From a virus: a DNA stretch of 64,000 nt. The notes below the pieces were generated by a model. That model was given only the letters and a program-made list of their open reading frames with translations. It had not been told where the DNA came from and made no database searches. Each line of letters opens with the position of its first letter. Within the stretch, counting starts at the first letter, position 1. The position numbers and the translations under genes were made by a program. This document shows, piece after piece, positions 31,209-61,408 of the stretch. The stretch is from IMG/VR virus record IMGVR_UViG_3300021478_000002, positions 1-64,000 of that record, one strand, 5' to 3'.

Positions 31209-31209
31209 G

Positions 31210-39370: not shown

Positions 39371-39561
39371 CGTCCCACTGGGTAAGCACCCTCGCATTCA
39401 CCATCCTGGTGAAGACCGACGGAGCGAAGATCGTGTTCACCGCGCCGCTGGTGAAGCGCTTCTACGGGCAGCCCGTCGGCAATCTGCTCAACTGGGCGAT
39501 CCCCTTCGGCGGCCTGCGGCATACAACCTGGGAATCGGCGCAAAAATCACCGATGGGGTGA
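39367..39561 (+). CDS. Small hypothetical protein
   Basis: 64 residues from GTG 39367, GTGA-coupled. Mixed strand and helix (LAFTILVKTDGAKIVFTAPLV). Its stop is 7 bases before the integrase promoter. Confidence 0.55.
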   Translation: MTSHWVSTLAFTILVKTDGAKIVFTAPLVKRFYGQPVGNLLNWAIPFGGLRHTTWESAQKSPMG

Positions 39562-39568
39562 AATATTA

Positions 39569-39597
39569 TTGACGTGCGCATGTAGTCGTGCAAAACT
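39569..39597 (+). promoter_or_regulatory. Integrase promoter, member of the CATG-box family
   Basis: TTGACG (39569-39574), 17-base spacer beginning TGCGCATGTAGTCGTG, AAAACT (39592-39597). The 13 bases GCATGTAGTCGTG are identical, at the same offset, to the promoter at 47942. ATG 39605 is 8 bases past the -10, so the message has little or no leader. The TTTCACCCC box is absent here. Confidence 0.6.
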
Positions 39598-39604
39598 GGA
39601 ATCC

Positions 39605-43580: not shown

Positions 43581-44501
43581 ATGCCGTTACTCAACAGCAT
43601 ACTCGAAATCCACAATCTGTCCAGTGGGGCACACCGGGCTTTAATTGGCTTGTTATCGTTCCGAAACAAAGCCAATGGGCAGTGTAATCCGAAGATGGAG
43701 ACGCTGGGAGAACGCCTGGGCGGAATCCCCGAGCGCACATTACGCCGCTGGTTGCACGAGCTGCGGCTCGCCGGTGTAGTGTACGCGACCAAACATCGCG
43801 GGTCGAATTCCTACCGGATTAACATTTCCACAGACTGTGAAAAACCGGCTGTGGAAAACGCTCAAGACCGGCCAAAAGTGGCCGCTCAAGACCGGCCAAA
43901 AGTGGCCGCTCAAGACCGGCCAAAAATGGCCGGTCTCAACGCTCGTATCCTTACTGAACAGACAGTATTGAACAGACAGAGGGGAACCGCCGCCGCCGAC
44001 GTACACGCTATACGTGTGGAAAAGGCGGCGGCGGCGGCACTGCCCTTGTTTGATGAAATCGAAACCCCAACACCCCAGGCCGAGGCTGAGAAGCTGGTGG
44101 CCGAGCTGATGCCGCAGCACCCGGAGCCGGGCAATTTGCCTAAGGCCATCAACGAAGCTGCAAAGCTCCTGGCCAGCAGGCCGGAGACGCTCACGGCGAC
44201 CATCGAGACCCTCCGGCGCAACCACGGGCTCTGGCGGGCGCGCTGGGCCACGTATGCCGCCGGTCGATTCGTGCCGCAGTTGTGGCGCTGGTTTCATGAC
44301 GGCGACTGGGAACATCCGCCGGTGGACCGGAAACCGGTGCAGAGCGAGACGTGGCACGAGCGCCACGAGCGGGAACGCAAGGAATCGGACGAGGAAAATT
44401 ACCGGCGTTATGCCGAGCTAGGTATGTGGTCGGCGCTGCGCGAGTATGGCGGCGATGCTCTTGTGGAGGTATGGCGTGAGAAAGTCAAAGCTGTTGGATG
44501 A
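43581..44501 (+). CDS. Replication initiator, lambda gpO-like
   Basis: 306 residues with an AAAGGA ribosome site. Residues 8-75 are a winged helix (SSGAHRALIGLLSFRNKANGQCNP, ETLGERLGGIPERTLRRWLHELRLAGVV), the HTH_36 pattern of phage initiators. Residues 94-117 are three repeats of QDRPK(V/M)A coded by the 24-bp iterons. The C-terminal half is helical and would bind a helicase loader. As in lambda, the origin repeats appear to lie inside the initiator gene. The next gene begins 26 bases before its stop. Confidence 0.8.
   Translation: MPLLNSILEIHNLSSGAHRALIGLLSFRNKANGQCNPKMETLGERLGGIPERTLRRWLHELRLAGVVYATKHRGSNSYRINISTDCEKPAVENAQDRPKVAAQDRPKVAAQDRPKMAGLNARILTEQTVLNRQRGTAAADVHAIRVEKAAAAALPLFDEIETPTPQAEAEKLVAELMPQHPEPGNLPKAINEAAKLLASRPETLTATIETLRRNHGLWRARWATYAAGRFVPQLWRWFHDGDWEHPPVDRKPVQSETWHERHERERKESDEENYRRYAELGMWSALREYGGDALVEVWREKVKAVG
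43860..43931 (+). repeat. Three 24-bp iterons, candidate replication origin
   Basis: Units at 43860, 43884 and 43908. Units 1 and 2 are identical; unit 3 differs by one base (AAAAATGG). Each holds the dyad GGCCA AAAG TGGCC. Upstream are two DnaA-box-like 9-mers, ATTTCCACA (43824-43832) and TTTTCCACA on the other strand (43850-43858), the latter 8 of 9 to TTATCCACA. Confidence 0.75.
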
Positions 44502-47925: not shown

Positions 47926-47970
47926 TTTCACCCCAAGCTCTTTGACAACTGCATGTAGTCGTGGCATGAT
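47926..47970 (+). promoter_or_regulatory. Promoter module A (leaderless type)
   Basis: TTTCACCCC (47926-47934), 7 bases, TTGACA (47942-47947), 17-base spacer with ACTGCATGTAGTCGTGG, CATGAT (47965-47970). The predicted start, 7 bases past the -10, is 47977, which is the A of the next gene's ATG. Confidence 0.75.
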
Positions 47971-47976
47971 TGACTC

Positions 47977-48219
47977 ATGACACACAACGGAATCGAATAC
48001 GTGACCAAAGAAGAAGCGGCGGCGCGGTGCAGGGCATTCGCGGCGGCCAACCCCGGCAGCGTGTTTCACAACTATGCACACGACAAAGTGGTCCGTACTG
48101 CGGACAACCGAACGACGCTGTACGAGTGGAACAAGTTGTACGCGGACGTGGTTAAGAGTAACCCGGAGCTGAAGGGCCTGTGGACCTTGAACACGCGTTA
48201 TACCCAGGAGGCCAAGTAG
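47977..48219 (+). CDS. Small hypothetical protein, leaderless
   Basis: 80 residues. The ATG has no ribosome site; the promoter module ends 6 bases before it. Helical (KEEAAARCRAFAAANPG, EWNKLYADVVK). Unrecognised. May be a small effector made early from its own promoter. Confidence 0.65.
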   Translation: MTHNGIEYVTKEEAAARCRAFAAANPGSVFHNYAHDKVVRTADNRTTLYEWNKLYADVVKSNPELKGLWTLNTRYTQEAK

Positions 48220-48221
48220 CC

Positions 48222-48476
48222 ATGACGATCACCGACTACATCAACCGCAAGGGCATCGAGGCGCTGCTGGACGACCGCCAGGATCTCTGCAAGGGCCTGC
48301 TGGAGGCCGCCCGCATCGCCATCGGCAGCCGCTGCCCCGAAGGGCACGGCAACGACGAGATCTCGCTCAACGGCGACGGGGAGGCCTTCTGCGCCGCCTG
48401 CGACGAGGTCTACTCGCTGAATGAGGAGGCATGCAAATGCCTGCGGCACCTGGGCTACGACGTGTGGGCGGAGTAG
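48222..48476 (+). CDS. Zinc-ribbon protein
   Basis: 84 residues with CAGGAGG ribosome site. SRCPEGHGNDE...AFCAACDEVY...ACKC suggests a ribbon (CxxGH...CxxC). N-terminal half helical (RKGIEALLDDRQDLCKG). Follows the leaderless gene in one operon. Confidence 0.6.
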   Translation: MTITDYINRKGIEALLDDRQDLCKGLLEAARIAIGSRCPEGHGNDEISLNGDGEAFCAACDEVYSLNEEACKCLRHLGYDVWAE

Positions 48477-48521
48477 TTTCACCCCATCGTAATTGACAAC
48501 AACATGCGGATGGTAGATACT
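48477..48521 (+). promoter_or_regulatory. Promoter module B (leaderless type)
   Basis: TTTCACCCC (48477-48485), 7 bases, TTGACA (48493-48498), 17-base spacer with ACAACATGCGGATGG, GATACT (48516-48521), then TTGAAT and ATG 48528. The predicted start falls on the A of the ATG. Confidence 0.8.
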
Positions 48522-48527
48522 TTGAAT

Positions 48528-48953
48528 ATGAGCACAGCAAAACAGATCAACGCCTACCGCGAGATTCTCCACACGCGCCAGCAAGAGCACCTGCGCAAGA
48601 CCTACGGCATGCAGCCGGTTGCCGCCCGCTTCATGGGCAAGTGCGGCTGTGGCCGCATCTTCGGCGAGGGCAGCGGCTGGGCCGCCGGTACGCCCTGCCG
48701 GTTCGACCGGGGCAACCTGATCGCCAAATACAAGGGCGAGGGCTGGTGGAACCTGTCCTGCATCGACACCGCGCGCCAGGATGAGTTCAAGGCCAACGCC
48801 CGCTACGTCCGTGAGGCACTCAGCCGCAGGGGCTGGGTGGCCTTCGACTGGACGAACGAAGCGCGGCAGGCAGATCTGTGGCGCGAAGAGCTGGAGTTCG
48901 ACGCCGAAGCCGCCGCGCGCGAGCGCGTCACCGACCGTCAGGAGGTGAAGTAA
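48528..48953 (+). CDS. Zinc-binding accessory protein, leaderless
   Basis: 141 residues. ATG 48528 is chosen because of the promoter module; the ATG at 48504 lies inside the promoter. Helical start (TAKQINAYREILHTRQQEHLRK), then KCGCGRIFGEGSG, PCRFDRGNLIAKYKGEGWWNLSC as a possible Cys site, and a charged helical end. Unrecognised. Confidence 0.6.
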   Translation: MSTAKQINAYREILHTRQQEHLRKTYGMQPVAARFMGKCGCGRIFGEGSGWAAGTPCRFDRGNLIAKYKGEGWWNLSCIDTARQDEFKANARYVREALSRRGWVAFDWTNEARQADLWREELEFDAEAAARERVTDRQEVK

Positions 48954-49174
48954 TGAAGCCCGGCGACAAAGTCCAAGTACACACGGATCGCGGCTACCGC
49001 GACTGCATCGTACTCGAAAGCAAGCCCTACCGGACCTGGGTGGAGTGGCGCTATCAGTTCGACCCGATGCCGCAGTTCGATCCGGCCACCTGGATCTCCC
49101 CCAGCACCGGCGGCTGGGCAGCCTCCCAGTATTTCCGGCCACGGCCCGCAGGGATTTCACCCCAAAATATTTGA
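48953..49174 (+). CDS. Small SH3-like protein candidate
   Basis: 73 residues, TAATG overlap. Beta-rich (GDKVQVHTDRGYRDCIVLESKPYRTWVEWR in parts), as in small KOW/SH3-like folds. Its 3' end contains the TTTCACCCC box, and its stop codon TGA lies inside the TTGACA of promoter C. Confidence 0.6.
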   Translation: MKPGDKVQVHTDRGYRDCIVLESKPYRTWVEWRYQFDPMPQFDPATWISPSTGGWAASQYFRPRPAGISPQNI

Positions 49175-49199
49175 CAACAACATGCGGACGGTAGATACT
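49155..49199 (+). promoter_or_regulatory. Promoter module C (leaderless type)
   Basis: TTTCACCCC (49155-49163), 7 bases, TTGACA (49171-49176), 17-base spacer with ACAACATGCGGACGG, GATACT (49194-49199), TTTGAAT, ATG 49206. The predicted start is the A of the ATG. Almost identical to module B. Confidence 0.8.
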
Positions 49200-49205
49200 T
49201 TGAAT

Positions 49206-49481
49206 ATGAACTGCTCACGTCAACACATTCACCGGGCGCTGGACTTCAGCGCCATCAGAAACGCGGACACCGCGATGGCCAACGCCATCCTGGCGCTGCT
49301 GCGCCGCCGCAAGAACGCCCTGCGCGAAAAAGAGATCGCCCGCTGGTTCCGTGCCACGCCCCAGGCCTTTATCTCCGCGACACTGGGCGACATGCTGCTG
49401 CGGGATGACGTCAAGGCCTGCCGCACCTCGCTGAACCGCAACCGCTGCGTTCTGGAATACTACCTGCCGGAGGTGAACTAG
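49206..49481 (+). CDS. Winged-helix-like small protein, leaderless
   Basis: 91 residues. A helical start (HIHRALDFSAIRNADTAMANAIL) is followed by REKEIARWFRATPQAFISATLGDML, a typical HTH/winged-helix turn, and a strand end (CVLEYYLPEV). It may be a regulator of the promoter family, but only by position. No ribosome site is visible. Confidence 0.6.
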   Translation: MNCSRQHIHRALDFSAIRNADTAMANAILALLRRRKNALREKEIARWFRATPQAFISATLGDMLLRDDVKACRTSLNRNRCVLEYYLPEVN

Positions 49482-49483
49482 CC

Positions 49484-49723
49484 ATGATGCACGACGATCT
49501 GATCGGCGTTAGCTTCCTGCCCAACAACGGCGAGGGCCTCACCCTTCAAGACCTGCTGGAGCTGATCCGCAATTTCCCAGCGAAGGCGCGGCAGAATTAC
49601 GTGCGGGTGAACATGGGCGGCGAGAGCGCCGAAGTCACCGGCATCGCATTCGCCCAATCCGACCAAGCCGAGAAATGGGAGTTCAAGATTTACATCACTA
49701 CCGACTACAAGGAAACCAAATGA
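49484..49723 (+). CDS. Small hypothetical protein
   Basis: 79 residues, 2 bases after the previous gene, with GGAGG ribosome site. Mixed alpha/beta (TLQDLLELIRNFPAKARQNYVRVNMGG). Unrecognised. Confidence 0.6.
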   Translation: MMHDDLIGVSFLPNNGEGLTLQDLLELIRNFPAKARQNYVRVNMGGESAEVTGIAFAQSDQAEKWEFKIYITTDYKETK

Positions 49724-50103
49724 CAGATAACAACGGCATCATTAGAACGGAATTCGACCGCATCCTGGCCAGCCTCAACGGCCTGCCGGATGTGACCCAT
49801 ACCGCGCCATCCACCATCCGTACCGTGGACTTCATCGGCACCAGCCATACCTTCGTAATCACGACCTATCGGATGAGGGATCGCGGCGACACCGTGTTTT
49901 TGGAGACCATCTCAGGCGATGACAGAGCCCTGCGCCTCGTGATCCCACCGGCGGTCGCGGATGCCATCGTGCGCCAGCGCGATGCCTTGACAACCAAGGT
50001 GCGCCGCAGGATCGGGAAGGCCAGCGCCGAGGCACGCAAGGCGCGCGGCGAGCAGCCCGGCTTCATGAAACACAAAAAGGCGGTGAAGAAACCGGGGGCC
50101 TAA
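49720..50103 (+). CDS. Hypothetical protein with basic tail
   Basis: 127 residues, ATGA overlap. Beta first half (VDFIGTSHTFVITTYRMRD), then a Lys/Arg helix (VRRRIGKASAEARKARGEQPG) and a basic end. Looks like a nucleic-acid-binding tail. Unrecognised. Confidence 0.6.
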   Translation: MTDNNGIIRTEFDRILASLNGLPDVTHTAPSTIRTVDFIGTSHTFVITTYRMRDRGDTVFLETISGDDRALRLVIPPAVADAIVRQRDALTTKVRRRIGKASAEARKARGEQPGFMKHKKAVKKPGA

Positions 50104-50111
50104 CGCCCCCA

Positions 50112-50156
50112 TTTCACCCCAAACTATTTGACGTCTGCATGCGGACGTGAGAAACT
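50112..50156 (+). promoter_or_regulatory. Promoter module D (leaderless type)
   Basis: TTTCACCCC (50112-50120), 7 bases, TTGACG (50128-50133), 17-base spacer with TCTGCATGCGGACG, GAAACT (50151-50156), TTGAAT, ATG 50163. Predicted start on the A of the ATG. Confidence 0.75.
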
Positions 50157-50162
50157 TTGAAT

Positions 50163-51140
50163 ATGAACGACACAGCAAACAACACGAACCTGACCGAAGC
50201 CTTCGAGACCACCGTCTGCGGGCGCTGCGGCGGCTGCGGCCAGTACAGCTACTGCCAGATGCATGGCACGGTGTGCTTCGGCTGCTCCGGCAAAGGCAAG
50301 GTCTACACCAAGCGCGCCAACGCGGCCATGGAATACGCCCGCACGCTGCGCACGGTGAAGGTGGAGCAGGTGCAGGTCGGCTGGCTGCTCTGGGAGGCCG
50401 GTGGGCCATTCAGCAAGGCCGGTTGGTTCACGGTTACGGCCATCGGGCAGGATGGCTCGAAGTACCGCACCAGCCCCGACGGCGAGTGGCTGCCCTACAC
50501 CAACTTCACCACCAAGCAGGGCACCATTGGCACCTTCCCCGGCAGTGACGTCCAGGCCGTCGAAAACAAGGCCCGCCTGACCGAAGTGCGCGCCCTGGCG
50601 CTCGCCTACCAAGCCACCCTGACCAAGCAGGGCACGGTGGCACCGGCGGGCTACTTCGAAGCCGAAGCCAAGCGCGAAGCCAAGCGCGCCGCCAAGGCGG
50701 AGGCCGCCCGCATCGCCTACGAGGCCGAGCAGGCCGCCCAGGCCGTCGTCCGCGCCGCGCAGGAAGCCGAAGCCCAGGCCCAGGCCGAAGCGCGCGCCGC
50801 CGAGCTGGAGGCCACCCGCATCGCCAAGCTTGCCACCACCCAGTACGTCGGCACCGTCGGCGAGCGCCGCGAGTTCACCCTGACGGTCGAGCGCACGGTG
50901 CGCTTCGAGTCCTACAAGTACGGCTGGCCCGCCGCGACCCTGTACATCTGCCGCGACGAGCAGGGCAATAAGGTGGTCTACAAGGGCACGGGCAGCTTCC
51001 TGCGCTCTGGCGAGACCGGCACGGTCACGGCGACGGTCAAGGATCACACGGAGTACCGCGACGAGAAGCAGACGGTGCTCACGCGCCCCAAGGTCGCCCG
51101 CCCGGCGGAAGAGGAAGCGGTGGCGGAGGCGGCGCAGTGA
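50163..51140 (+). CDS. DnaJ-zinc-finger-like protein with OB-like C-terminus, leaderless
   Basis: 325 residues from ATG 50163. Residues 19-46: VCGRCGGCGQY and VCFGCSGKGKV, two CxxCxGxG-type knuckles as in DnaJ. Residues 70-120: small beta domain (WFTVTAIGQDGSKYRTSPDG). Residues 158-225: Ala/Glu-rich coiled coil. Residues 230-310: beta domain (GERREFTLTVERTVRF, TLYICRDEQGNKVVYKGTG) of OB-type layout. Similar proteins occur in many phages and may bind DNA ends or nucleotides; the function is not known. Confidence 0.65.
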   Translation: MNDTANNTNLTEAFETTVCGRCGGCGQYSYCQMHGTVCFGCSGKGKVYTKRANAAMEYARTLRTVKVEQVQVGWLLWEAGGPFSKAGWFTVTAIGQDGSKYRTSPDGEWLPYTNFTTKQGTIGTFPGSDVQAVENKARLTEVRALALAYQATLTKQGTVAPAGYFEAEAKREAKRAAKAEAARIAYEAEQAAQAVVRAAQEAEAQAQAEARAAELEATRIAKLATTQYVGTVGERREFTLTVERTVRFESYKYGWPAATLYICRDEQGNKVVYKGTGSFLRSGETGTVTATVKDHTEYRDEKQTVLTRPKVARPAEEEAVAEAAQ

Positions 51141-51316
51141 GCGCCATCATCCGCATGACCCGGTTCGGCAGGATCTGGAAAATCCTGCTGGACTGCGGTC
51201 ACACCATGGAGCGCACCCAGGCCGAGATCAAGTTGCAGCAGCTCTACATCGACAAGCGCATCGGGTGCCGGGAGTGCGAGCGCGAGCCGCTCGATTCCCT
51301 GACCATCAGCAAATAG
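51137..51316 (+). CDS. Small CGH-CxxC protein
   Basis: 59 residues from GTG 51137 (GTGA overlap). MTRFGRIWKILLDCGHTMER, then IGCRECERE: a CGH...CxxC zinc site. The same layout is seen in the genes at 53707, on the minus strand at 61337 and probably at the right edge (63920). Confidence 0.55.
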   Translation: MSAIIRMTRFGRIWKILLDCGHTMERTQAEIKLQQLYIDKRIGCRECEREPLDSLTISK

Positions 51317-51401
51317 TCGAAACGGGAATTGACACCGTCACGCGGAGATGGCCTCCCGCGCTTTGAACAAGACAGGCTAAATGAAAAGGAAAAACCAAAC
51401 G

Positions 51402-51767
51402 ATGAAACGCATAGCTGTACTCTTGACTGTTCTCACGGTACTGGCGAGCTTCGCCGGTGCTCAGACCATATTCGGCACGCAGACGCGGATCGGAAACGCG
51501 ACCGTTTATTCCGACAGCCGTGGCAACACGGGGACCTCGATGCAGATCGGCAACCAGACCTACGGAACCCACCGTGACGCTTCGGGGACTTATAACAGCA
51601 CCCAGACGCAGATCGGCAACCAGACCGTGTACCAGAATTCGCGCGGCACCACAGGCAACACCATGCAGGTAGGCAACCAGAGCTTCAGTACCTACCGGAA
51701 CGGAGGAACCACCACGACCTGCACGAGCAATCGCATCGGCAATCAGGTCTTCACCAACTGCCGGTAA
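51402..51767 (+). CDS. Secreted repeat protein (IGNQT repeats)
   Basis: 121 residues. Residues 1-20 are a signal peptide (KRIAVLLTVLTVLASFAGA, cleavage after AGA-Q). The mature part has about five imperfect repeats of TQxRIGNxTVYxxSRGTTG / MQIGNQTY, reminiscent of curlin-type beta repeats, then a Cys pair (TCTSNRIGNQVFTNC). An in-frame ATG at 51381 would add seven residues. Exported by a Sec-type route if made, perhaps as a lysogenic-conversion protein; similar IGN repeats are found in bacterial secreted proteins. An aberrant copy of the TTGACA box lies at 51329. Confidence 0.7.
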   Translation: MKRIAVLLTVLTVLASFAGAQTIFGTQTRIGNATVYSDSRGNTGTSMQIGNQTYGTHRDASGTYNSTQTQIGNQTVYQNSRGTTGNTMQVGNQSFSTYRNGGTTTTCTSNRIGNQVFTNCR

Positions 51768-51774
51768 TCCAAGC

Positions 51775-51792
51775 GGGGGCCGCAAGGCCCCC
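51775..51792 (+). terminator. GNRA-capped hairpin
   Basis: GGGGGCC GCAA GGCCCCC, a 7-bp stem with a GCAA tetraloop, 7 bases after the stop of the secreted gene. No U-tract follows, so it may stabilise or cap the message 3' end instead of terminating. Confidence 0.5.
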
Positions 51793-51814
51793 CACTAGAG
51801 ATCGAAAGGACGAG

Positions 51815-51898
51815 GTGTTAGAAGCTATCGAAGTTACCGCATTCATTCTGCTGATGATCATGATTTATGTCGGCAAAAAGAAAGGGAAATGGAAGTAA
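51815..51898 (+). CDS. Small single-pass membrane peptide, 27 residues
   Basis: From GTG 51815, with AAAGGA six bases upstream. One hydrophobic helix (VTAFILLMIMIYVG) and a basic end KKKGKWK. It might be a small holin-like or regulatory membrane peptide, but this is a guess from hydropathy. Confidence 0.45.
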   Translation: MLEAIEVTAFILLMIMIYVGKKKGKWK

Positions 51899-51909
51899 TC
51901 ACGAAGAGG

Positions 51910-51932
51910 ACCGGCGGTATCCTGCCGCCGGT
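51910..51932 (+). terminator. Inverted repeat, weak terminator candidate
   Basis: ACCGGCGG / CCGCCGGT, 8-bp stem, 7-base loop, no T-run afterwards. Confidence 0.35.
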
Positions 51933-51964
51933 GCCTTGCCAAAAGGGCGGGAAGTGAAACTGGT

Positions 51965-51987
51965 TTGACAACGGCATACGGTATTGG
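51965..51987 (+). promoter_or_regulatory. Variant of the TTGACA-CATG box
   Basis: TTGACA (51965-51970) followed by ACGGCATACGG; the middle keeps CAT but no proper -10 follows. A real ribosome site (GGGAGG, 51986-51991) precedes ATG 52000, so this is not leaderless. Confidence 0.4.
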
Positions 51988-51999
51988 GAGGATTAAATC

Positions 52000-52200
52000 A
52001 TGACATCGGACGAGAGAATCGACAAGCTGGCAGAGACAGTGCAGAACCTGGAGCGGGTGGTGCGCCAAGGCTTCGCCGTGCTCACGGAACTGCATGGTGA
52101 TACGCAGCGCGAGATGCAGAAAATGGCCAATTCGGTGTCTGCCTTGGCGGATCACATCGCGGACCATAACACGCGGCTGGATAAATTGGAGGGCAAGTAA
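52000..52200 (+). CDS. Small coiled-coil protein
   Basis: 66 residues. The whole chain shows heptads (DKLAETVQNLERVVRQGFAVL, HNTRLDKLEG). Typical of small phage coiled-coil partners. Immediately followed by the next ATG. Confidence 0.6.
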   Translation: MTSDERIDKLAETVQNLERVVRQGFAVLTELHGDTQREMQKMANSVSALADHIADHNTRLDKLEGK

Positions 52201-52629
52201 ATGAGCACCGAGACCGAGATCAAGGCAGTCAAGTGCTGCCCGCATTGCGAGGCAGAGCTGACGCCGGAGGAAATCAAGACGCTGTGGTCGAGCTACACCA
52301 CGTCGCTGCGCACGACGCTGGGCGGGCCGAAGCGCACGCCGCGCCCCTGCCCGAGCTGCGGCATGACCTGCGACACTGCGCGCGAGGCCTGGAGTCACTG
52401 CCGCATCCCGCGCAACCTGGACCCGGCGGCGCTGTTGGCCTACGTGCTAGGCCGGATGCCGGAAGAGCTGACGAAACTCCTGAGCCACCGTCATGGCGGT
52501 CTGGCGAACCTGCACGTCGCCGTGACCGGCATCCTGATGACGAAGCTCAAACCGGCGCAGAAGCGGCAGGCGAAGTGGTATCTGAGCATGATCGACCGCG
52601 CCATGGACAAGCTGGAGGACGTGGCCTGA
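52201..52629 (+). CDS. Zinc-ribbon protein
   Basis: 142 residues. CCPHCEAEL...RPCPSCGMTCDT forms a CxxC-CxxC ribbon; a His/Cys group continues (WSHC). C-terminal half helical (LLAYVLGRMPEELTKLLSHRH). No family recognised. Confidence 0.65.
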   Translation: MSTETEIKAVKCCPHCEAELTPEEIKTLWSSYTTSLRTTLGGPKRTPRPCPSCGMTCDTAREAWSHCRIPRNLDPAALLAYVLGRMPEELTKLLSHRHGGLANLHVAVTGILMTKLKPAQKRQAKWYLSMIDRAMDKLEDVA

Positions 52630-52878
52630 ATGGACAACGAAATCGGGCGCGAGTTGCTCGCGAGCGAGCTGAAGCCGAAGACCATCGTGGTGCTCGAAAG
52701 GCCCGACACCGCCATTGTCACTATGTGGGTGGCCGAGGTGACGCCCCAATACGTCATTTTCCTGGCAGGCGTTACCCAAACCTGTTTCCTCGCGCAGCGC
52801 GCCGGTCCCCACCTGGAGCAGATCACGGACGACACGGGCCGCATGCTGCGCGTCTTCGAATACCTAGGGGAACCATGA
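52630..52878 (+). CDS. Small beta-rich hypothetical protein
   Basis: 82 residues, abutting the previous stop. Strand pattern (KTIVVLERPDTAIVTMWV, YVIFLAGVTQTCFL). May be an SH3- or KOW-like fold. ATGA overlap with the next gene. Confidence 0.6.
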   Translation: MDNEIGRELLASELKPKTIVVLERPDTAIVTMWVAEVTPQYVIFLAGVTQTCFLAQRAGPHLEQITDDTGRMLRVFEYLGEP

Positions 52879-53123
52879 CAGACCGGTTGAAGCGCGGAGA
52901 CTACGTGCGGGTGCGCCTGAGTGATCGCGACGAGTGGACACCGGCGTTCGTCGCGCTGGCGTCCGACACCGATCCATCTTCCGTCATGCTGATGCTGGAT
53001 GGCGCGGTGCGGTCGTCGTCGGGCGGCATGTTCGTTAATGCCCTGCCGTTGACGATAGACTACGCAGCGGAAACCGTCACCAGCCTGCATGGCGATGCCT
53101 ACGACATCGAGGTGCCGTCTTGA
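52875..53123 (+). CDS. Small beta-rich hypothetical protein
   Basis: 82 residues, ATGA overlap. KRGDYVRVRLSDRDEWTPAFVALA fits a small SH3-like domain, similar in layout to its upstream neighbour, so the pair may derive from duplication. Confidence 0.6.
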   Translation: MTDRLKRGDYVRVRLSDRDEWTPAFVALASDTDPSSVMLMLDGAVRSSSGGMFVNALPLTIDYAAETVTSLHGDAYDIEVPS

Positions 53124-53710
53124 CCGTACCCGAACGTATCGCCCGGCTGCCGCGCGATCCGCGTGGTTACCCGATCCCGTGGAACGTGCTGCGCGAGGGC
53201 GACACGGCGTTCTTCACGATCAACGACGACCGCCGCGCCTGGGAGGCTTTGCGCAAAGGCCTGTGCCCGATCTGCGGCGAGCGCCTTGGGCGCTATCTCT
53301 GGTTTGTCGGCGGCCCGCGCTCCGCGTTCGATCCCGGCGGATGCTACCTCGACCTGCCCGGCCATCGCGACTGCATGGAGTTCGCGTTGATGACGTGCCC
53401 CTACTTGGCAATGCCGAAATACCTGGGGCGCATCGACGTCGTGCATCCCGAGAAGCTGCCGCCGCAGGCAAAGCTCCTGCTCGATGAGACCATGATCCGC
53501 GACCGGCCCGAGATCTTCGTGGCCGTCGCCTGCACGCGCATCGAGGCCAATGATCGCGGGCCGCTTCAGCCGTACTTGAAGCCGGTCGCACCGTTTCTCG
53601 ATTGGACCTACTGGCGGCATGGCCGCCAAATCACCGAAGAGGAGGCAATGCCGTTCCTGCGCGCGGCGCTGGGCGACGAATGGCAGCTACCGGGGAGGGC
53701 AGCAGCATGA
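53120..53710 (+). CDS. Conserved phage zinc-ribbon protein
   Basis: 196 residues from TTG 53120 (TTGA overlap). 'RG.PIPW' near residue 15, LCPICGERLG, FVGGPRSAFDPGGCYLD, GHRDCMEFAL and TCPYLAM give the Cys/His set of a protein that is common in phages of actinobacteria and proteobacteria; its role is not known to me. Confidence 0.7.
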   Translation: MTVPERIARLPRDPRGYPIPWNVLREGDTAFFTINDDRRAWEALRKGLCPICGERLGRYLWFVGGPRSAFDPGGCYLDLPGHRDCMEFALMTCPYLAMPKYLGRIDVVHPEKLPPQAKLLLDETMIRDRPEIFVAVACTRIEANDRGPLQPYLKPVAPFLDWTYWRHGRQITEEEAMPFLRAALGDEWQLPGRAAA

Positions 53711-53931
53711 AGATCGCGCTCGATAGCGGCGGCGGCTACCTGGAGCCCGACGAGGGACCGCGCGACACGCGCTTCCACAAGCGCATTGTGCGCGTCGAGG
53801 TGATCCAGGGCATGCGCGCGGGCCATCAGTTGATGCTCGAATGCGGCCATGGCGTGATGGCCATCGGCAACCTCGCGCACGCCGAAGGCGTGGTTCTCTG
53901 CACAAAATGCCGCGACTTGGAGGAAGGGTGA
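53707..53931 (+). CDS. CGH-CxxC small protein
   Basis: 74 residues, ATGA overlap. Contains LMLECGHGVMAIG and LCTKCRD, the same zinc layout as the 51137 gene. The first half is helical and strand (IVRVEVIQGMRAGHQ). Function unknown. Confidence 0.6.
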   Translation: MKIALDSGGGYLEPDEGPRDTRFHKRIVRVEVIQGMRAGHQLMLECGHGVMAIGNLAHAEGVVLCTKCRDLEEG

Positions 53932-54617
53932 ATGAAGAGCTAGCCAATGCGAGCAAAGAGCTAGCCAAGGCCGCTGCAGCCCTGCGCGGCATCCAGGAGC
54001 GCCAGGAGGCCCGCCGCCGGGCTGCGCGCTTCCGGCCTGACGGCAAGCTGCGGCCAACTGAGTCGCGCAACCGGTTCATCGCGGAGACCGCCCTGGTGCG
54101 CGAGCCGATCCCTGACGGCCACGGTGCCGAGTTCTGGATCACATACACCGGCAATCGCGCGGAGTGGCAGCGCGTGAAAGACGATCCGATCCTGGCCCAG
54201 CTTCCCGAGCTTTCGAAGCACCTCGATCCCGACGCGCTCAACGGCTACGTGGCCTATCCGAAGCGCCACGCGCCGCGCCTGCCGAAGGGTGACTGCAACA
54301 TTGTGCAATACATTCCGGTGCATGGCGGCATCACCTGGGCGTGCAAAGACAGCTACATGGCCGTGTGGGGCTTCGACACCATGCACTGTAACAGCGCAGA
54401 GCAGCCGCGCGCCGACCAGGATTGGATTCGCGCCAACTGTTGGGTACTGTATCGCGGGCTGATGCTCGCGGAGAAGCGCTGGCCGGAATTCCGGCGGGCC
54501 TCACGGTCGCGGCGCGCGGAGATCGCCGATGAACTGCTCGCGTTGATCGAGGAGCAGCCGCTGCTGGAGAAGCTCGGCTTCAACGCCATGATCAACATGC
54601 TGTTCGGGAGGATTTGA
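53928..54617 (+). CDS. Hypothetical protein
   Basis: 229 residues from GTG 53928, GTGA overlap, GAGGAAG ribosome site. Residues 1-30 helical (NEELANASKELAKAAAAL). Residues 95-155 contain a run with conserved Trp/Cys/His (GYVAYPKRHAPRLPKGDC, YMAVWGFDTMHCN). C-terminal helices. The family was not recognised; length and complexity suggest a real globular protein. Confidence 0.6.
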   Translation: MNEELANASKELAKAAAALRGIQERQEARRRAARFRPDGKLRPTESRNRFIAETALVREPIPDGHGAEFWITYTGNRAEWQRVKDDPILAQLPELSKHLDPDALNGYVAYPKRHAPRLPKGDCNIVQYIPVHGGITWACKDSYMAVWGFDTMHCNSAEQPRADQDWIRANCWVLYRGLMLAEKRWPEFRRASRSRRAEIADELLALIEEQPLLEKLGFNAMINMLFGRI

Positions 54618-54757
54618 TGGGATTCGGACAAGATCAGAACGGAATCTTTAAGCCGCTGCCCGATGGGCGCGTGCTGCGCGTCACCAAGCGAACGTTCAAC
54701 ACCATCCTGACCCTTTCCAGTTCTCAGCAGGACGACGGGTGGAAGGATGGCTGGTGA
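54617..54757 (+). CDS. Small hypothetical protein, 46 residues
   Basis: The ATG shares a base with the upstream TGA (TGATG), with GGGAGG as ribosome site. Composition is soluble (KPLPDGRVLRVTKRTFNTIL). The tail is WKDGW. Confidence 0.5.
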   Translation: MGFGQDQNGIFKPLPDGRVLRVTKRTFNTILTLSSSQQDDGWKDGW

Positions 54758-54766
54758 TACACGACC

Positions 54767-54961
54767 ATGGAAGCCGCCGTGAGCGACTTTGTGATCTGGG
54801 AACCGGGCGAGACCGTGATCTGCGTGCTCTGCAACAGGGAGCGCGGCGGCGACGATCCGCCCGGCAATTGGATGCGGCACCGGCCCAGCCAGCGGCGGCG
54901 CATCCCGATCTTCGGCGAGCGCTGGGGGACGTTGGGCTACATGGAGTACATCCACGAATGA
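54767..54961 (+). CDS. Small zinc-finger-like protein
   Basis: 64 residues. VICVLCNRERGG gives one CxxC. The rest is Trp/Arg/Pro-rich (DPPGNWMRHRPSQRRR). Stop overlaps the next start as ATGA. Confidence 0.5.
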   Translation: MEAAVSDFVIWEPGETVICVLCNRERGGDDPPGNWMRHRPSQRRRIPIFGERWGTLGYMEYIHE

Positions 54962-55296
54962 AGAAAAAACGCTTGGCACTAATCGTCAGCGGGAAGACCG
55001 TCGCCGATGCCTGCCCGAACTGCATGCATAGGCTGGATGGGATGACGGCGGCCCGTCTGGACGGACCTTTCGAGCGTACCGGGCCGACGAGGCGGGTCAG
55101 CCTGAAGGGAAATGTGAGCATGTGCGTCTACTGCGGGGCAATGCTGGTTTTTGCCGACGATGAGGGACACCTGCGGACGATGACCGCTGCGGAGCGGTCC
55201 ACTTACCATCTGGAGCCGGTCCTTCAAGACATCATGGACAAAATTCGGTCCAAGCGGCCCAACCCACCCGACTTCACGAGGAAGAATTTCAATTGA
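54958..55296 (+). CDS. Zinc-ribbon protein
   Basis: 112 residues. ACPNCMHRLDGM and SMCVYCGAMLVFADDEGH form a CxxC-CxxC ribbon, with a strand pair between them. The C-terminus is helical. It sits 7 bases before the gene pair next described. Confidence 0.65.
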   Translation: MKKKRLALIVSGKTVADACPNCMHRLDGMTAARLDGPFERTGPTRRVSLKGNVSMCVYCGAMLVFADDEGHLRTMTAAERSTYHLEPVLQDIMDKIRSKRPNPPDFTRKNFN

Positions 55297-55303
55297 GGCG
55301 CAC

Positions 55304-56227
55304 ATGCCACGACTGATCGATGACCTGCGCGCCAAGAGCGCCCGGATCGCGAAGCCGCACTTCGTGCCGCCTGACAAGGTGGACGCATGGCAGGATATGG
55401 CCAAGCGCACGCACGAGACGCTGATGTGGCCGGAGCTGCCGGTGCTGCTCATCGACAACGTGTCCGAGTACTTTTACACGAGCGAGCAAGAGTATTGGGA
55501 TCTGCGCGACGACTTCCCGAATCTGGCTCCGCCCTATCCGGTGTTCTGGGCCGAGTGCAAGATGGCCAAGCGCATCCACAGCAAGCAGTGTGGCGACACC
55601 AACGTGGGCGCTCTCGTGCCGCATGGCCGACTTGGCGCGCTGATTCACGGTCTCAATCCGTCGGAGGTAAACGGCGAGGGCATCCCCGAGAACGTCCGGT
55701 GGATTCTGTGGTGCGAGCTGTTCATCGACTACGGTCGGCGCGGCGTGACGGCGGATGGACCGCATGGTTCCACATTCCTGTGCGTGGATGCCGAGGGCGT
55801 GATCATCGAAAAGCCGTGGATGCAGTCGCTCGCCGACCAGAGCGATGCCGGGATCATGCGCAGCTACATGACGTTCTTCAACCCGGTCTTCCTGGCGATG
55901 AGCTTTCTCCACTGCCGGAACGTCACCATCGTCGAGAACGAGGTGCCCCCGAAGGTCGCGAAGAAGTATCGCGCGCGCACCGGCGTGCAGCCGACCCGCT
56001 ACAAGACTCTGATCATCGAGCCGCTGAAAAAGATCCTGCGCACCGAAGGCCGCAGCGACACGGTCGGCGTGCAGAAGGCGATGCACATCTGCCGGGGCCA
56101 CTTCAAGGACTACCGCGAGGGTCGCGGGCTGTTTGGCAAATATCACCAGCTCGTGTGGCAGCCATCCATCGTGCGCGGCACCAAGGGCAAGAGCGCGCCG
56201 CCGAGGGAGATCGAGGTCAAGCTATGA
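55304..56227 (+). CDS. Conserved phage protein paired with the AcrVA2-like gene
   Basis: 307 residues. No known domain in the first 240 residues; central region LFIDYGRRGVTADGPHGSTFLCVD. The C-terminus has AMHICRGHFKDY (residues 259-270) and LFGKYHQLVWQPSIVRG, a pattern I know from a broad family of phage proteins, often with a 'HICRGH' start. The following gene has a similar motif, so the two C-termini may be related. Role unknown; ATGA overlap with the AcrVA2-like gene, so they are co-translated. Confidence 0.65.
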   Translation: MPRLIDDLRAKSARIAKPHFVPPDKVDAWQDMAKRTHETLMWPELPVLLIDNVSEYFYTSEQEYWDLRDDFPNLAPPYPVFWAECKMAKRIHSKQCGDTNVGALVPHGRLGALIHGLNPSEVNGEGIPENVRWILWCELFIDYGRRGVTADGPHGSTFLCVDAEGVIIEKPWMQSLADQSDAGIMRSYMTFFNPVFLAMSFLHCRNVTIVENEVPPKVAKKYRARTGVQPTRYKTLIIEPLKKILRTEGRSDTVGVQKAMHICRGHFKDYREGRGLFGKYHQLVWQPSIVRGTKGKSAPPREIEVKL

Positions 56228-57300
56228 ATCCATCCATCGAAGAGAAGGTCAGGCGACCGGTAAAATATCTGACCGCAGTATCGCAACGCTATCCCGGCAT
56301 ATGGAGATCAGTGGATCAGTTGCGCGCAAATCGCGACAAGGTGGCGCAACACCACGATTGGCCGACATGGTGCTATTTGCCCCTGCCGGGGGCCGCAGGG
56401 ATTATTACCTCCCCGACCCTCGATGATGGCCAGGAGAATATAGAAGCAGCCTGCGTGGCGACGCTAGCTGGTTGGCGGCTTGCCAAGGACATTTATATTT
56501 TTGATGAGACCGTTCTTGAGGAGTTGTGGAATACGCCCATCGAAGGGAACATCCCTATCGATGTCCTGTATAGGCTGCCTACGTTATGTGCCTACGTGGC
56601 ATTCCCTTCGCCCAGAGACGTAGAAGACGGCAAGCTTCACGGCTTCTTCGTCCACCTGAACTACATCAGAATGCCGATGCTGGTGATCGCCATGGATTTC
56701 GGCACCCTTAATCGCATCTCCTCCGAGTATGTTCCTCTGGCTGTCTTTCCCGTGGAACTGCACGAGGGCGTTGATCTGCTCCAATGCCTGACGATCATGC
56801 ATGAAAAATTGCAGCGGCGGAGAGGCAAGCCACCTGAAGAGATCGAGCGAGTCGTACTGCCGGAAGCAATAAAACGTACGCTGGAACCGCTGGTGAGTCT
56901 TACGATTTATCTCTGTTCGACGTCGGCGGAAATCAGAGCGCGAGACCCGTTGCGCGGCCTAAAGCAGGGCCACTACACCAAGAAGACGAAGAAGGGCGTG
57001 CGCACTTTTGTCCCCGAGCAGCCGCAGGTTTGGGAGGTCGCGTATCGCATCGGGGCCACTTTACGCGCAGCAACCGCTGCCGCCGTATCGCGGAGCACCG
57101 ACAACGGCGGCACGCACGCAAGCCCGCGTCCGCACATGCGCAAGGCGCACTGGCACTCGTTCTGGACGGGTCCGAAGGCTGCTGTCGGCAAGGCTCCGGT
57201 GCCTGCGCGTGAGATTGTTCTCAAATGGATTCCGCCTATTGCCGTCGCGATGGGACCGGATGACGAGACCATTCCAACCGTCCACCGGGTGACGAGGTGA
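56224..57300 (+). CDS. AcrVA2-like protein (candidate type V anti-CRISPR)
   Basis: 358 residues. Residues 78-130 (TLAGWRLAKDIYIFDETVLEE, then PIDVLYRLPTLCAYVAF) and the end RPHMRKAHWHSFWTG (302-316) plus IVLKWIPPIAVAM follow the published AcrVA2 pattern, with its 'GxWRxxxGIYxxD', 'LPxWCVYV' and 'RPHxRRxHWHxxWxG...RW' landmarks as I recall them. AcrVA2 of Moraxella lowers Cas12a by causing loss of its mRNA. Homologs occur in many phages whose hosts lack Cas12a, so the role here is open. Size is close to that of AcrVA2 (about 320 residues), with a 35-residue longer N-terminus. Confidence 0.75.
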   Translation: MNPSIEEKVRRPVKYLTAVSQRYPGIWRSVDQLRANRDKVAQHHDWPTWCYLPLPGAAGIITSPTLDDGQENIEAACVATLAGWRLAKDIYIFDETVLEELWNTPIEGNIPIDVLYRLPTLCAYVAFPSPRDVEDGKLHGFFVHLNYIRMPMLVIAMDFGTLNRISSEYVPLAVFPVELHEGVDLLQCLTIMHEKLQRRRGKPPEEIERVVLPEAIKRTLEPLVSLTIYLCSTSAEIRARDPLRGLKQGHYTKKTKKGVRTFVPEQPQVWEVAYRIGATLRAATAAAVSRSTDNGGTHASPRPHMRKAHWHSFWTGPKAAVGKAPVPAREIVLKWIPPIAVAMGPDDETIPTVHRVTR

Positions 57301-57305
57301 AGCTT

Positions 57306-57512
57306 ATGAACTGTCCGTTTTATGGCCGTGCCATGTATCAGACGGGCCTGATCGGCGGGCCGCGACCGATTCTGCTGTTGAATACCAACGGCAATCAATG
57401 CGCCATCGTCACCACCAGCCACGCACCGTGCCGGATGGAGATCAACGGCGAGACCCCGGATTGGAAGACGTGCGTGCTGGTCCGCGACATGCGGATGGAG
57501 CCGGAGCTATGA
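57306..57512 (+). CDS. Small conserved phage protein
   Basis: 68 residues from ATG 57306 (GTG 57297 overlaps the upstream stop). NCPFYGRAMY, LLLNTNGNQCAIVTTSHAPC and PDWKTC are the landmarks of a small protein frequent in phages, with four Cys that likely bind zinc. Confidence 0.65.
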   Translation: MNCPFYGRAMYQTGLIGGPRPILLLNTNGNQCAIVTTSHAPCRMEINGETPDWKTCVLVRDMRMEPEL

Positions 57513-57655
57513 TCGAGCAGCCGCCCTACATCGTGTGCCCGAAATGCGGCATGGTCTCGCATAATCCGAACGACGTGCGAGAACGCTACTGCGGCAACTG
57601 CCACGGCTTCCACGACGATCTACTCAGGGAGCTGAAGGGCCGGGAGGAACCATGA
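57509..57655 (+). CDS. Small zinc-ribbon protein, 48 residues
   Basis: ATGA overlap. YIVCPKCGMVSHNPNDVRERYCGNCHGFHDD in pieces is a compact CxxC-CxxC ribbon known from phages and bacteria (DUF-type). A partner in DNA handling is possible but not shown. Confidence 0.65.
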   Translation: MIEQPPYIVCPKCGMVSHNPNDVRERYCGNCHGFHDDLLRELKGREEP

Positions 57656-58002
57656 GCGAACCTCTTGCGATCTACACCTGGGTCGGCGAGGACGAACACG
57701 CCAACATGATCGAACAACAAGTGGCCAAACTAAGGCGGGAGCGTGAGGCGAGCGAACAACAAGTGGCAAGCGTGATGACGGTGGAGAATGATCTGAAATA
57801 CGTCATACAGGGTGCGCATTACGGCAAGAATGACTGGTGGGACTTGCCCAACCAGACCTACGACAGTCGAAGCGAAGCCCTGTACCACAAGCGCTGGCCC
57901 AACGACCCAGACGACACGGGGTGGATGTGGATACCGGACCTTCAACTCCGTGTCGTGCGCCGGGTGCGGCGAGTGGTCACGGTCGAGCAATGTGTGTCCT
58001 GA
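57652..58002 (+). CDS. Hypothetical protein
   Basis: 116 residues, ATGA overlap. Helix at 25-45 (KLRREREASEQQVASVM); Trp-rich middle (NDWWDLPNQTYDSRSEA, GWMWIPDLQ). The end is basic (RVVRRVRRVV). Unrecognised. Confidence 0.6.
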   Translation: MSEPLAIYTWVGEDEHANMIEQQVAKLRREREASEQQVASVMTVENDLKYVIQGAHYGKNDWWDLPNQTYDSRSEALYHKRWPNDPDDTGWMWIPDLQLRVVRRVRRVVTVEQCVS

Positions 58003-58011
58003 GGCGCGAGC

Positions 58012-58251
58012 ATGAAGCACTGTAGCTTTTGCGAGGAGCCGATCTTGAAGGGAGAAGCTGCGCGGGTCTTCGGCGAGCCGCTGCACCAGGAATGCCACCT
58101 GCGCTTGATCTTCGGTTCGGTCGCCCACCTGGAGCGCCGGTGCGGCTGCTTCGTGCCGGGATCGATGGAAAGCGATCCGCTCACCATGACCAAGCGCCAA
58201 GCGGCGCGCGCGGCGGTCCTGCTCTTCGGCGTAATGTCACGGAGCAACTGA
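58012..58251 (+). CDS. Small zinc-finger-like phage protein
   Basis: 79 residues. HCSFCEEPILKGE, HQECHLR, RRCGCFVPG make a likely zinc site; this layout is common among small phage proteins. Starts 9 bases after the previous stop. Confidence 0.6.
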   Translation: MKHCSFCEEPILKGEAARVFGEPLHQECHLRLIFGSVAHLERRCGCFVPGSMESDPLTMTKRQAARAAVLLFGVMSRSN

Positions 58252-58318
58252 CACCACCATCCTGCTGCCGGAGGAATACTGACAACTGCATGTGATAGGC
58301 TGATGCCTGCGAGGGCTT

Positions 58319-58747
58319 ATGGACAAAAAGTTTGAGCGTGCACTACGAAAGGCGTGTAAAGAAGCGGGCGATTGGAGGGCTCAGGCTCGTCATGCTGCGA
58401 AATATCTTCGGCAGGCCGTTAAAGCGCCGACGGAGGAAGAGTCGGGCGACTACCTGGAGGAAGCCAGCCAATGTATATCTCAAATGTTCGAAGTATTCTG
58501 GGATCGCAAAGAAGGCAGCGCCGAGAACAAATACCTTGATCCGAATTACACACCGGACCCGCTTTTCGGGGATATTCCCTCCACGAGTCAGGTCCACCTT
58601 CCAGAAAGGGCTTGGCATCTGCTCTACATGCAGGCCAAGAGGGATGGCGTCGATATCCACACGGCGCTCGCCCGGCTGATCCTGCACGAACCATACGAGC
58701 CGCCGGAATTCCCCAAGCTGGATTTTGGTGGTGGCCCGGTCCAGTGA
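58319..58747 (+). CDS. Hypothetical protein
   Basis: 142 residues with GAGGG ribosome site. Helical first half (KFERALRKACKEAGDWRAQARHAAK), then an extended middle and a helix (LLYMQAKRDGVDIHTALARLI). A weak CTGACA-ACTGCATG box lies at 58279. Unrecognised. Confidence 0.6.
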   Translation: MDKKFERALRKACKEAGDWRAQARHAAKYLRQAVKAPTEEESGDYLEEASQCISQMFEVFWDRKEGSAENKYLDPNYTPDPLFGDIPSTSQVHLPERAWHLLYMQAKRDGVDIHTALARLILHEPYEPPEFPKLDFGGGPVQ

Positions 58748-58754
58748 TTGGCCA

Positions 58755-58799
58755 TTTCACCCTTTGCGGTTGACAACTGCATGCGATGGTCCGTATATT
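58755..58799 (+). promoter_or_regulatory. Promoter module E (leaderless type)
   Basis: TTTCACCCT (58755-58763), 6 bases, TTGACA (58770-58775), spacer with ACTGCATGCG, TATATT (58794-58799), then GTGAAT and ATG 58806. The predicted start falls on the A of the ATG with the TATATT choice, or one base before with GTATAT. Confidence 0.75.
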
Positions 58800-58805
58800 G
58801 TGAAT

Positions 58806-59126
58806 ATGAACAATGTTTGCCAATTCTGCAATGTCGAGCACGCAACCACGGTGCCGACCGTACACCTGAACGGAACCAGCGCCGAGGAGCTGCGTGATCA
58901 GCTCGACGCCGCCGTCGAAGGGCTGCGCGCCGCCCGGCAGGCCGTGGTGCAGGCCGCACCCAACGGGCGCGACTACTACGTGCAAGACGCCATCGCGCGC
59001 GGACGTGCCATGGGCGCACACGAACGCCGCTGCGGCGAACTGACCCGCATGCTGGCCGAGCTGGAAGAAATGCGCGACCACGTGCAGGCCGTCATCGACT
59101 TCAAGGCCGCGCAGCGGGCACGATGA
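58806..59126 (+). CDS. Small Cys/helical protein, leaderless
   Basis: 106 residues. VCQFCNVEH at the start is a Cys pair with His. Residues 22-100 are helical (EELRDQLDAAVEGLRAARQAVVQ, RMLAELEEMRDHVQAVIDF). Unrecognised. ATGA overlap with the next gene. Confidence 0.6.
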   Translation: MNNVCQFCNVEHATTVPTVHLNGTSAEELRDQLDAAVEGLRAARQAVVQAAPNGRDYYVQDAIARGRAMGAHERRCGELTRMLAELEEMRDHVQAVIDFKAAQRAR

Positions 59127-61385: not shown

Positions 61386-61408
61386 TTGACAACTGCATGC
61401 AGATCAAC
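61386..61408 (+). promoter_or_regulatory. Orphan TTGACA-CATG box
   Basis: TTGACA (61386-61391) and ACTGCATGCAG follow the family pattern but no -10 or gene lies close. The rest of 61409-61677 is AT-richer than the flanks and has two GCTAAGTG repeats and an inverted CTTAGG/CCTAAG pair (about 50 bases apart, ending just before the next gene). No ORF seen. Confidence 0.4.

Follow-up and report, generated by a model that had tools for sequence, protein, structure and literature searches.

In phage phiC31, which carries a serine integrase, the repressor binds inverted repeats dispersed near the early promoters, and in phage lambda the cI mRNA is leaderless. Dispersed operators have also been described for P1, where 22 sites scattered in the phage genome allow the C1 repressor to repress lytic genes and Lxc strengthens binding (PMC8546580), and for the Cluster A phages L5 and Bxb1, whose stoperators occur in many copies per genome with a motif that varies between heteroimmune phages (PMC6550527). 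Leaderless cI and cro mRNAs of PY54 were mapped by rapid amplification of complementary DNA ends (PMC4488713), while leaderless promoters were predicted in Cluster O phages for PL1 and PR2 and similarly for PL2 (PMC4351075). Two sites per promoter are found in the IncP KorA/KorB system, i.e., a 12-bp operator in the core promoter and a second, 16-bp OB site, at some promoters 4-10 bp upstream, with cooperating regulators (PMC11790492). Early regulons of archaeal viruses place many small genes without known function under a conserved sequence whose core is constant while other parts vary with the virus, and were used to find anti-defence genes (PMC11065993). Start-associated sequences of Cluster K phages, 13 bp long and 3-7 bp upstream of the start codon, are thought to act in translation initiation (PMC3203893). 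Here we analyze a family of promoter modules in bases 1-64,000 (the window) of the 70,797-bp virus record IMGVR_UViG_3300021478_000002, named G000. Each module joins an upstream box, a -35 element, a CATG-centred site in the spacer, a -10 element and an ATG. We hold it to be rather probable that in these modules a temperate phage possesses a dispersed early regulon, in which the palindrome around CATG is bound by a phage-specific repressor and the box by a conserved protein.

The box TTTCACCCC, followed after 5-8 bases by TTGAC, occurs four times in the window and not once in 100 dinucleotide shuffles. A fifth copy at 58755 carries the box variant TTTCACCCT with a 6-base gap upstream of TTGAC. 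CATG is present inside the 17- or 18-base spacers of all five modules (47926, 48477, 49155, 50112 and 58755), exactly 6 bases separate the -10 hexamer from the ATG, which would place +1 at the A of the ATG, and (G/T)TGAATATGA is common to four of the five. A preliminary description of this DNA had listed these five modules with the same elements, including the sequence common to four of them, and both the list and its composition were confirmed. A sixth module at 39555, in front of a serine integrase gene, has the box inverted (GGGGTGAAA) and 5 bases from TTGACG, with the ATG 7 bases after the -10. The predicted start at the A of the ATG or one base before it is thus in keeping with the anatomy of all six window modules, in which the ATG stands 6-7 bases past the -10.

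Five weaker copies had been proposed in addition, and these fared unequally. The one at 39569 is the -35 of the sixth, full module, and 51965 is ambiguous, with a degenerate inverted box GAAGTGAAA five bases 5' of TTGACA (by eye); 58279 and 61386 are operator-like sites only, and 51329, where neither box nor CATG nor -10 can be seen by eye, was rejected. A seventh row in the scan of G000 (13662, minus strand, TTCCCA, ATG 34 bases off) was taken as chance. One further exact TTTCACCCC lies at 63766-63774 with no promoter behind it, possibly by chance.

Related contigs carry the same arrangement. A portal search of viral contigs gave 17 relatives; the contigs compared were reached via portal, box or early-gene searches and are not a random sample. 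Scanning 20 records for box-N7-TTGACA with up to 2 mismatches matched five, namely G005 (9), G018 (5), G000 (4), G019 (3) and G004 (1), as opposed to 1 match in the 20 records for the reversed control pattern. When 17 contigs were scanned for a promoter together with the box in either orientation, allowing up to 1 mismatch, 40 rows were returned, compared with 2 in reversed sequences; this added G002, with a single inverted-box site, and G007 and G024, with two forward modules apiece. G022 (47892) and G026 (36785) each show a leaderless-like start behind a forward box, seen by eye and counted as weak, as was an inverted box at matching places in these two contigs, where the ATG follows 8 bases past a weak -10. 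Rows in G006 (TTCACC) and G025 (TTGCGA), a second one in G022 and G026 47948 were judged unconvincing, and the scan gave no row in G001, G009, G011, G014 or G027, several contigs being short and possibly missing the early region. The search of related phages suggested in the preliminary description therefore recovered the same modules in G004, G005, G007 and G024 and single or weak ones in G002, G022 and G026. Its proposal of leaderless starts under dedicated control gains from the anatomy and from these relatives; its restriction to one phage was too narrow, since a group of phages is concerned.

A second lineage, represented by G018 and G019, also has the box and promoter, there without a fused ATG. 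The two lineages have few morphogenesis genes in common and share related early genes that are up to 89% identical (G018 versus G024). Upstream of its first promoter, G018 has three boxes within 76 bases (4834, 4855 and 4901). A search of viral contigs for TTTCACCCC-N7-TTGAC found at least 119 loci, from which G018 (four copies), G019 (three) and G004 were kept; L070 and L009, identical to G022 and G023, were searched as well, and the rest were dropped by eye. Checking these loci for a -10 behind the box left seven rows besides G004, including G018 and L061. Two loci with TTTCACCCC-N7-TTGAC may be chance or further members: L061 (minus strand, 3872), with a promoter-like -10 and an ATG four bases on, and L014 (minus strand, 4926), with TATAAA and an ATG seven bases on (by eye). 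The sequence TTGACAACTGCATG likewise occurred at no fewer than 119 loci in viral contigs, with no convincing module at the best-ranked 60 sites, and a box scan of the genome collection with a 6-base instead of a 7-base gap gave 42 loci with one match each, which resembles chance.

The preliminary description had noted no ribosome site at the module starts and such sites downstream, in agreement with our calculations. Over the 20 bases preceding each of the six module starts (39605, 47977, 48528, 49206, 50163 and 58806), pairing energies with the anti-Shine-Dalgarno (anti-SD) sequence are weak, at -1.5 to -6.8, versus -9.3 or better in six of eight downstream genes tested; two module starts at -6.8 are near the random 5% point of -7.0, and the positions used for two downstream genes, 48954 and 49723, sit 1 and 3 bases past the true start. 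In the 17 contigs we also collected TTGAC promoters followed by a fair -10, irrespective of the box, and then noted whether a box in either orientation, with at most 2 mismatches, lay within 20 bases upstream. This box-blind scan gave 42 rows. The ATG lies 6-7 bases after the -10 in 19 of them, 18 of which have a box, compared with a box in 1 of the 23 others (in G018). In a box-first scan of G000, G002, G004, G005, G007 and G024 requiring a -35 that begins with TTG, 21 of 24 rows have the ATG 6-7 bases past the -10; two further rows reach this distance with an 18-base spacer, and in G005 4936 it is 31 bases. Additional forward-box sites of G005 at 13031, 12462, 11371 and 45127, some of them read by eye, also show 6-7 bases.

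The second lineage differs in this respect. Among the eight rows of G018 and G019 the ATG stands 22-28 bases past the -10 in five and is absent within 40 bases in three. Anti-SD energies at three G019 starts are -8.0, -7.9 and -6.4 (random 5% point -7.0), the second belonging to module 14682, and Shine-Dalgarno-like stretches precede the corresponding ATGs in G018 (by eye). Because these modules are not fused to an ATG, fusion to a start codon is no requirement of the promoter module. Leaderless-like starts also occur without a box (G000 63926, G005 73413, several in G006, and G018 2953, 32140 and 32386), each possibly by chance. Since box promoters may be unfused and such box-less starts exist, the leaderless starts do not appear to be caused by the box. 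From promoter anatomy they are predicted for the window modules, and leaderless initiation seems to be characteristic of the group or of its host.

CATG is the centre of a palindrome that fills the spacer between -35 and -10, and the arms of this palindrome differ from phage to phage. In G005 it reads GATGCATGCATC, with 8 exact copies, 7 of them within modules, and in G004, G007 and G024 it is AAACnnCATGnnGTTT-like, four of four exact copies in G004 and two of three in G007 lying in promoters; in a palindrome count over these three contigs, two of nine rows were misread at a wrong CATG. The palindrome of G000 is relaxed and best developed at 50112 (ACGTCTGCATGCGGACGT). A matrix built from six G000 sites recovers these six plus 58280, 61387 and 51966 above the best control score of 15.0. 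As expected of a dyad, seven of the nine window sites recur within the 22 best hits on the reverse strand, where three score above 15.0. All nine operator-like window sites lie within 39.5-61.4 kb, six of them in box promoters. The corresponding matrix for G005 was built from 12 module sites, one of which was misaligned. A protein on a palindrome between a -35 and a -10 at normal spacing would exclude polymerase, and this is the usual place of a repressor.

CATG and the box are two separate sites, the former the core of a phage-specific palindrome and the latter group-wide and found in both orientations. One regulator binding either CATG or TTTCACCCC, as initially proposed, does not fit as a single site, the two evolving differently. 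Two genes are retained together with a promoter module, gene 58806 in G024 and G004 and gene 50163 in G005 and G007; for G007, whose start was displaced by five bases in one alignment, this relies on the promoter scan and the gene comparison. The box is not indispensable: at gene 58806 it is TTTCACCCT in G000, degenerates to TTTCTCCCA in G004 and is absent in G024, whereas the -35, an operator-like site, the -10 and the fused ATG are all kept; the promoters of the G024 and G004 relatives carry the other operator type. The expectation that the module stays with its gene in relatives thus applies to the promoter, and not to the box of gene 58806.

From these features we infer the following mode of action. 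Each module would be a sigma-70-type promoter (TTGAC, 17-18 bases, -10) of one early regulon. The CATG-centred palindrome would be the operator of a phage-specific dimeric repressor that shuts the module promoters in the lysogen, including that of the integrase. In both of its orientations, the near-invariant 9-base box R-TTTCACCCC-AA, located a short distance 5' of the -35 with its centre near -47, would be bound by a conserved protein, possibly from the host, that would either help RNA polymerase, which we prefer, or stabilise the repressor. Transcription would begin at the A of the ATG or one base earlier and yield leaderless mRNAs translated directly from the AUG. As a tentative extension, the two lineages may have a host group in common and share one promoter kit: a near-invariant box on which a conserved protein, probably the host's, docks whichever way the box points, an exchangeable palindromic operator setting immunity and, for one of the lineages, fusion of the start codon to +1.

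Several observations speak against this regulon with its separate repressor and box protein. G005 26270 has the box and a leaderless ATG and lacks the palindrome, the G002 site lacks CATG, and in G018 the palindrome AAATCGAGCGATTT is exact at one site and degenerate elsewhere. Conversely, the box is missing at G024 16376 and degenerate at G004 7388, palindrome and leaderless ATG being kept in both. No repressor common to the operator-bearing phages was found: the AraC-family regulator is present in G000, G002 and G005, and the small XRE-type helix-turn-helix (HTH) protein is present in G000 and not in G005. A search of 40 small proteins of G024 and G007 for a shared repressor yielded nothing, and no operator-like site above control adjoins the AraC or XRE genes. 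Because no candidate occurs in all contigs and no above-control site lies beside these two genes, we assign no binder to either box or operator.

Both genes are nevertheless candidates; nearly all other genes predicted in the window run in the opposite direction. The AraC-family regulator, whose gene is oriented in the same exceptional way in G005, could read the box as a MarA/SoxS-like class II activator, with the palindrome as a second site, for this or a different activator, and no repressor involved. Sites around -51 to -43, where the box lies, suit class II activators, SoxS is a weak relative of this protein in the PDB, and an AraC-family HTH is encoded by the three contigs named above. 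We regard this explanation as unlikely: PF12833 has no match in G018 (66 kb), with its six box promoters with TTGACA, or in G019 (16 kb), both possibly incomplete, and a palindrome in a spacer of normal length points to a repressor. For the XRE-type protein no relatives were found in G005 or G018. A GerE-type protein scored above cut-off only in G005, with a sub-threshold match in G002. The early protein encoded at 55304-56227 is the most widely shared one (G005, G018, G022 and G024-G027, covering both lineages; 48-79% identity). It is no clear box reader, since it also occurs in G025 and G027, which have no convincing modules. By sequence it has no relative in the PDB, and its structural model (predicted local distance difference test score 74.5) gave no fold match at E 0.001 or better; at the E 0.001 level it matches only unnamed or uncharacterised phage proteins. 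An identity with AcrVA2 was supported by neither the sequence nor the fold search.

Alternatively, host proteins borrowed by the phage might regulate both sites. Lineages with few morphogenesis genes in common have the box and a few early genes of up to 89% identity, so they may share hosts, and no DNA-binding phage protein common to all contigs was found. Since the box occurs in both lineages, its binder could plausibly be a host protein or a phage regulator that is mobile. As the operator arms differ among phages that may share hosts, phage-encoded immunity fits better than one host regulator, and host control of both sites appears quite unlikely; for the box alone a host regulator may apply. 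Acidobacteriota were considered as hosts and set aside: 396 genomes of this phylum gave 2 weak partial matches and 6 further genomes gave none, which does not show a host; two peptide patterns confirmed no capsid relatives in the genome collection. Bases 36000-60000 have no near match in the phage collection, whose best-ranked relatives are 36-39% identical in the portal and 33-36% in the terminase.

The modules might also have arisen by recent duplication of a promoter cassette, with the box hitch-hiking and no dedicated regulator involved. Modules within one genome are indeed alike, and 48477 and 49155 are 88% identical across 58 bases. Between genomes, however, 26 forward modules with a 7-base gap show 97% identity in the box, 81% in the -35 and a near-random 31% in the linker between these two conserved parts; the modules were chosen by the box, so that the 97% is partly due to choice, while the contrast in the box-blind scan is unaffected. 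A random linker together with the result of that scan argues for selection rather than recent copying. In addition, the box is found again, beside other operators, in the second lineage, and inverted boxes keep a narrow range of distances: 4-5 bases to TTGA (6 rows, two of which are matching sites in G022 and G026 and not independent), compared with 6-7 bases for the forward box (27 rows). The shorter distance would fit a bound protein whose centre is displaced by one base from the middle of the box. All 26 forward modules have a purine directly 5' of the box, and AA often follows it 3'. We therefore consider duplication without a regulator improbable. That the repeats, although directly at start codons, have a role in translation or at the RNA level, like start-associated sequences, or serve replication or packaging rather than being promoters, is very improbable given a -35 and a -10 at standard distance before each ATG, a box upstream of its own transcript in both orientations, and a distance of 22-28 bases from module to ATG in five of the eight G018 and G019 rows.

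Table 1 Coordinates of promoter modules, related sites, module genes and candidate regulators in the window.
Feature	Position	Strand	Description
Inverted-box module	39555-39607	+	GGGGTGAAA 39555-39563; -35 TTGACG 39569-39574; CATG-centred site; -10 AAAACT 39592-39597; serine integrase ATG 39605
Module 1	47926-47979	+	Box 47926-47934; -35 TTGACA 47942-47947; putative operator ~47943-47964; -10 CATGAT 47965-47970; ATG 47977
Module 2	48477-48530	+	Box 48477-48485; -35 TTGACA 48493-48498; -10 GATACT 48516-48521; ATG 48528
Module 3	49155-49208	+	Box 49155-49163; -35 TTGACA 49171-49176; -10 GATACT 49194-49199; ATG 49206
Module 4	50112-50165	+	Box 50112-50120; -35 TTGACG 50128-50133; near-palindrome ACGTCTGCATGCGGACGT; -10 GAAACT 50151-50156; ATG 50163
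Module 5	58755-58808	+	Box TTTCACCCT 58755-58763; -35 TTGACA 58770-58775; 18-base spacer; -10 TATATT 58794-58799; ATG 58806
Ambiguous copy	51965-52002	+	TTGACA; operator-like GGCATACGG; Shine-Dalgarno GGGAGGA (-10.2 kcal/mol) at would-be -10; ATG 52000
Operator-like site	58280-58301	+	TGACAACTGCATG in common with modules; no box, no clear promoter, no leaderless ATG
Operator-like site	61386-61408	+	TTGACA and CTGCATGCAG; box and leaderless ATG lacking
Large serine recombinase	39605-41356	+	PF00239; phrog_95 integrase, E 7e-53; behind inverted-box module
Module gene	47977-48219	+	80 amino acids; no Pfam match
Module gene	48528-48953	+	141 amino acids; no Pfam match
Module gene	49206-49481	+	91 amino acids; no Pfam match
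Module gene	50163-51140	+	325 amino acids; C-terminal part like phrog_2319; partial relatives in G005 and G007 also behind a module
Module gene	58806-59126	+	106 amino acids; relatives in G024 (matching N-terminus) and G004 (N-terminus ~12 residues shorter)
AraC-family regulator, candidate box/operator reader	29878-30975	-	PF12833; relatives in G002 and G005 only
Small XRE-type HTH protein, candidate repressor	29521-29811	-	PF01381; relatives in G022, G025 and G026

The integrase marks the phage as temperate (Table 1). The five window module genes besides it have no Pfam match over the curated cut-off, and for genes 47977, 48528 and 49206 no relative was found among the compared contigs. The module genes resemble early accessory regulons, and an anti-defence role like that in archaeal viruses would be a guess. 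One of 48 small G018 proteins matches the hairpin domain of Acb2/Tad1 (E 1.2e-13), an anti-defence family.

Other features of the window were noted in passing. Three copies of a 24-bp tandem repeat (CGCTCAAGACCGGCCAAAAGTGGC) at 43859-43935 lie within the replication-initiator-like gene 43581-44501 (phrog_270, HTH_36), recalling the lambda-type origin within the O gene. Direct repeats of ~11 bp (CTTTGGCACCG) at ~31207-31262, between the divergent AraC gene and YqaJ/RecT operon, stand just upstream of a box-less TTGACA promoter, and G002 has a similar array (by eye). Dense imperfect CAGCCACGCGGGCGAC-type repeats occupy 63116-63583. The small protein encoded at 51381-51767 begins like a signal peptide and contains QIGNQ-type repeats, and one reading frame at 36659-38548 combines an HNH nuclease motif with a ResIII/DEAD helicase.

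For uncultivated phages, such a promoter grammar would predict transcription and translation starts, the genes of the early regulon and the base pairs that may set immunity. A constant box next to variable operator arms offers a natural experiment on the divergence of phage immunity types; if our reading is true, swapping the operator alone would make a new immunity type with the box retained. The promoter signature could also serve as a tool to find early host-takeover or anti-defence genes in unannotated contigs, and a large leaderless regulon, if true, would point to a host with efficient leaderless translation.

How do these modules compare with described systems? With P1 they share dispersed operators and a proposed second protein. 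Unlike the 17-bp asymmetric P1 operator, the window sites are palindromes in the spacer, accompanied by a separate box and predicted leaderless starts. Cluster A stoperators are 13-bp asymmetric sequences, mostly off promoters and oriented with transcription, whereas the sites described here are palindromic and mostly inside promoters. With phiC31 the resemblance lies in dispersed inverted repeats and a serine integrase; box and leaderless ATG are not known from that system. PY54 and Cluster O phages have one to three leaderless promoters; six are predicted in the window, each with the -10 placed so that +1 falls at or next to the A of the ATG and with weak anti-SD pairing, and more than 10 in G005, all of one module. 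KorA/KorB provides a parallel by geometry, with two sites near the promoter, yet it is a plasmid system with a 16-bp OB, compared with a phage and a 9-bp asymmetric box. Archaeal virus regulons likewise combine constant and virus-specific parts with small genes, there under archaeal promoters. Start-associated sequences of Cluster K would not fit between -10 and ATG, which only 6-7 bases separate here. A whole-word search for the box on both strands found no paper, and the literature, with subscription papers outside the coverage of both searches, yielded no published system in which start codons are fused to promoters that carry both a flippable box of near-invariant sequence and a palindrome in the spacer that can be exchanged. 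Leaderless phage mRNAs have precedents, as have dispersed operators; what looks new is to find the two together with such a box and with operators that can be exchanged.

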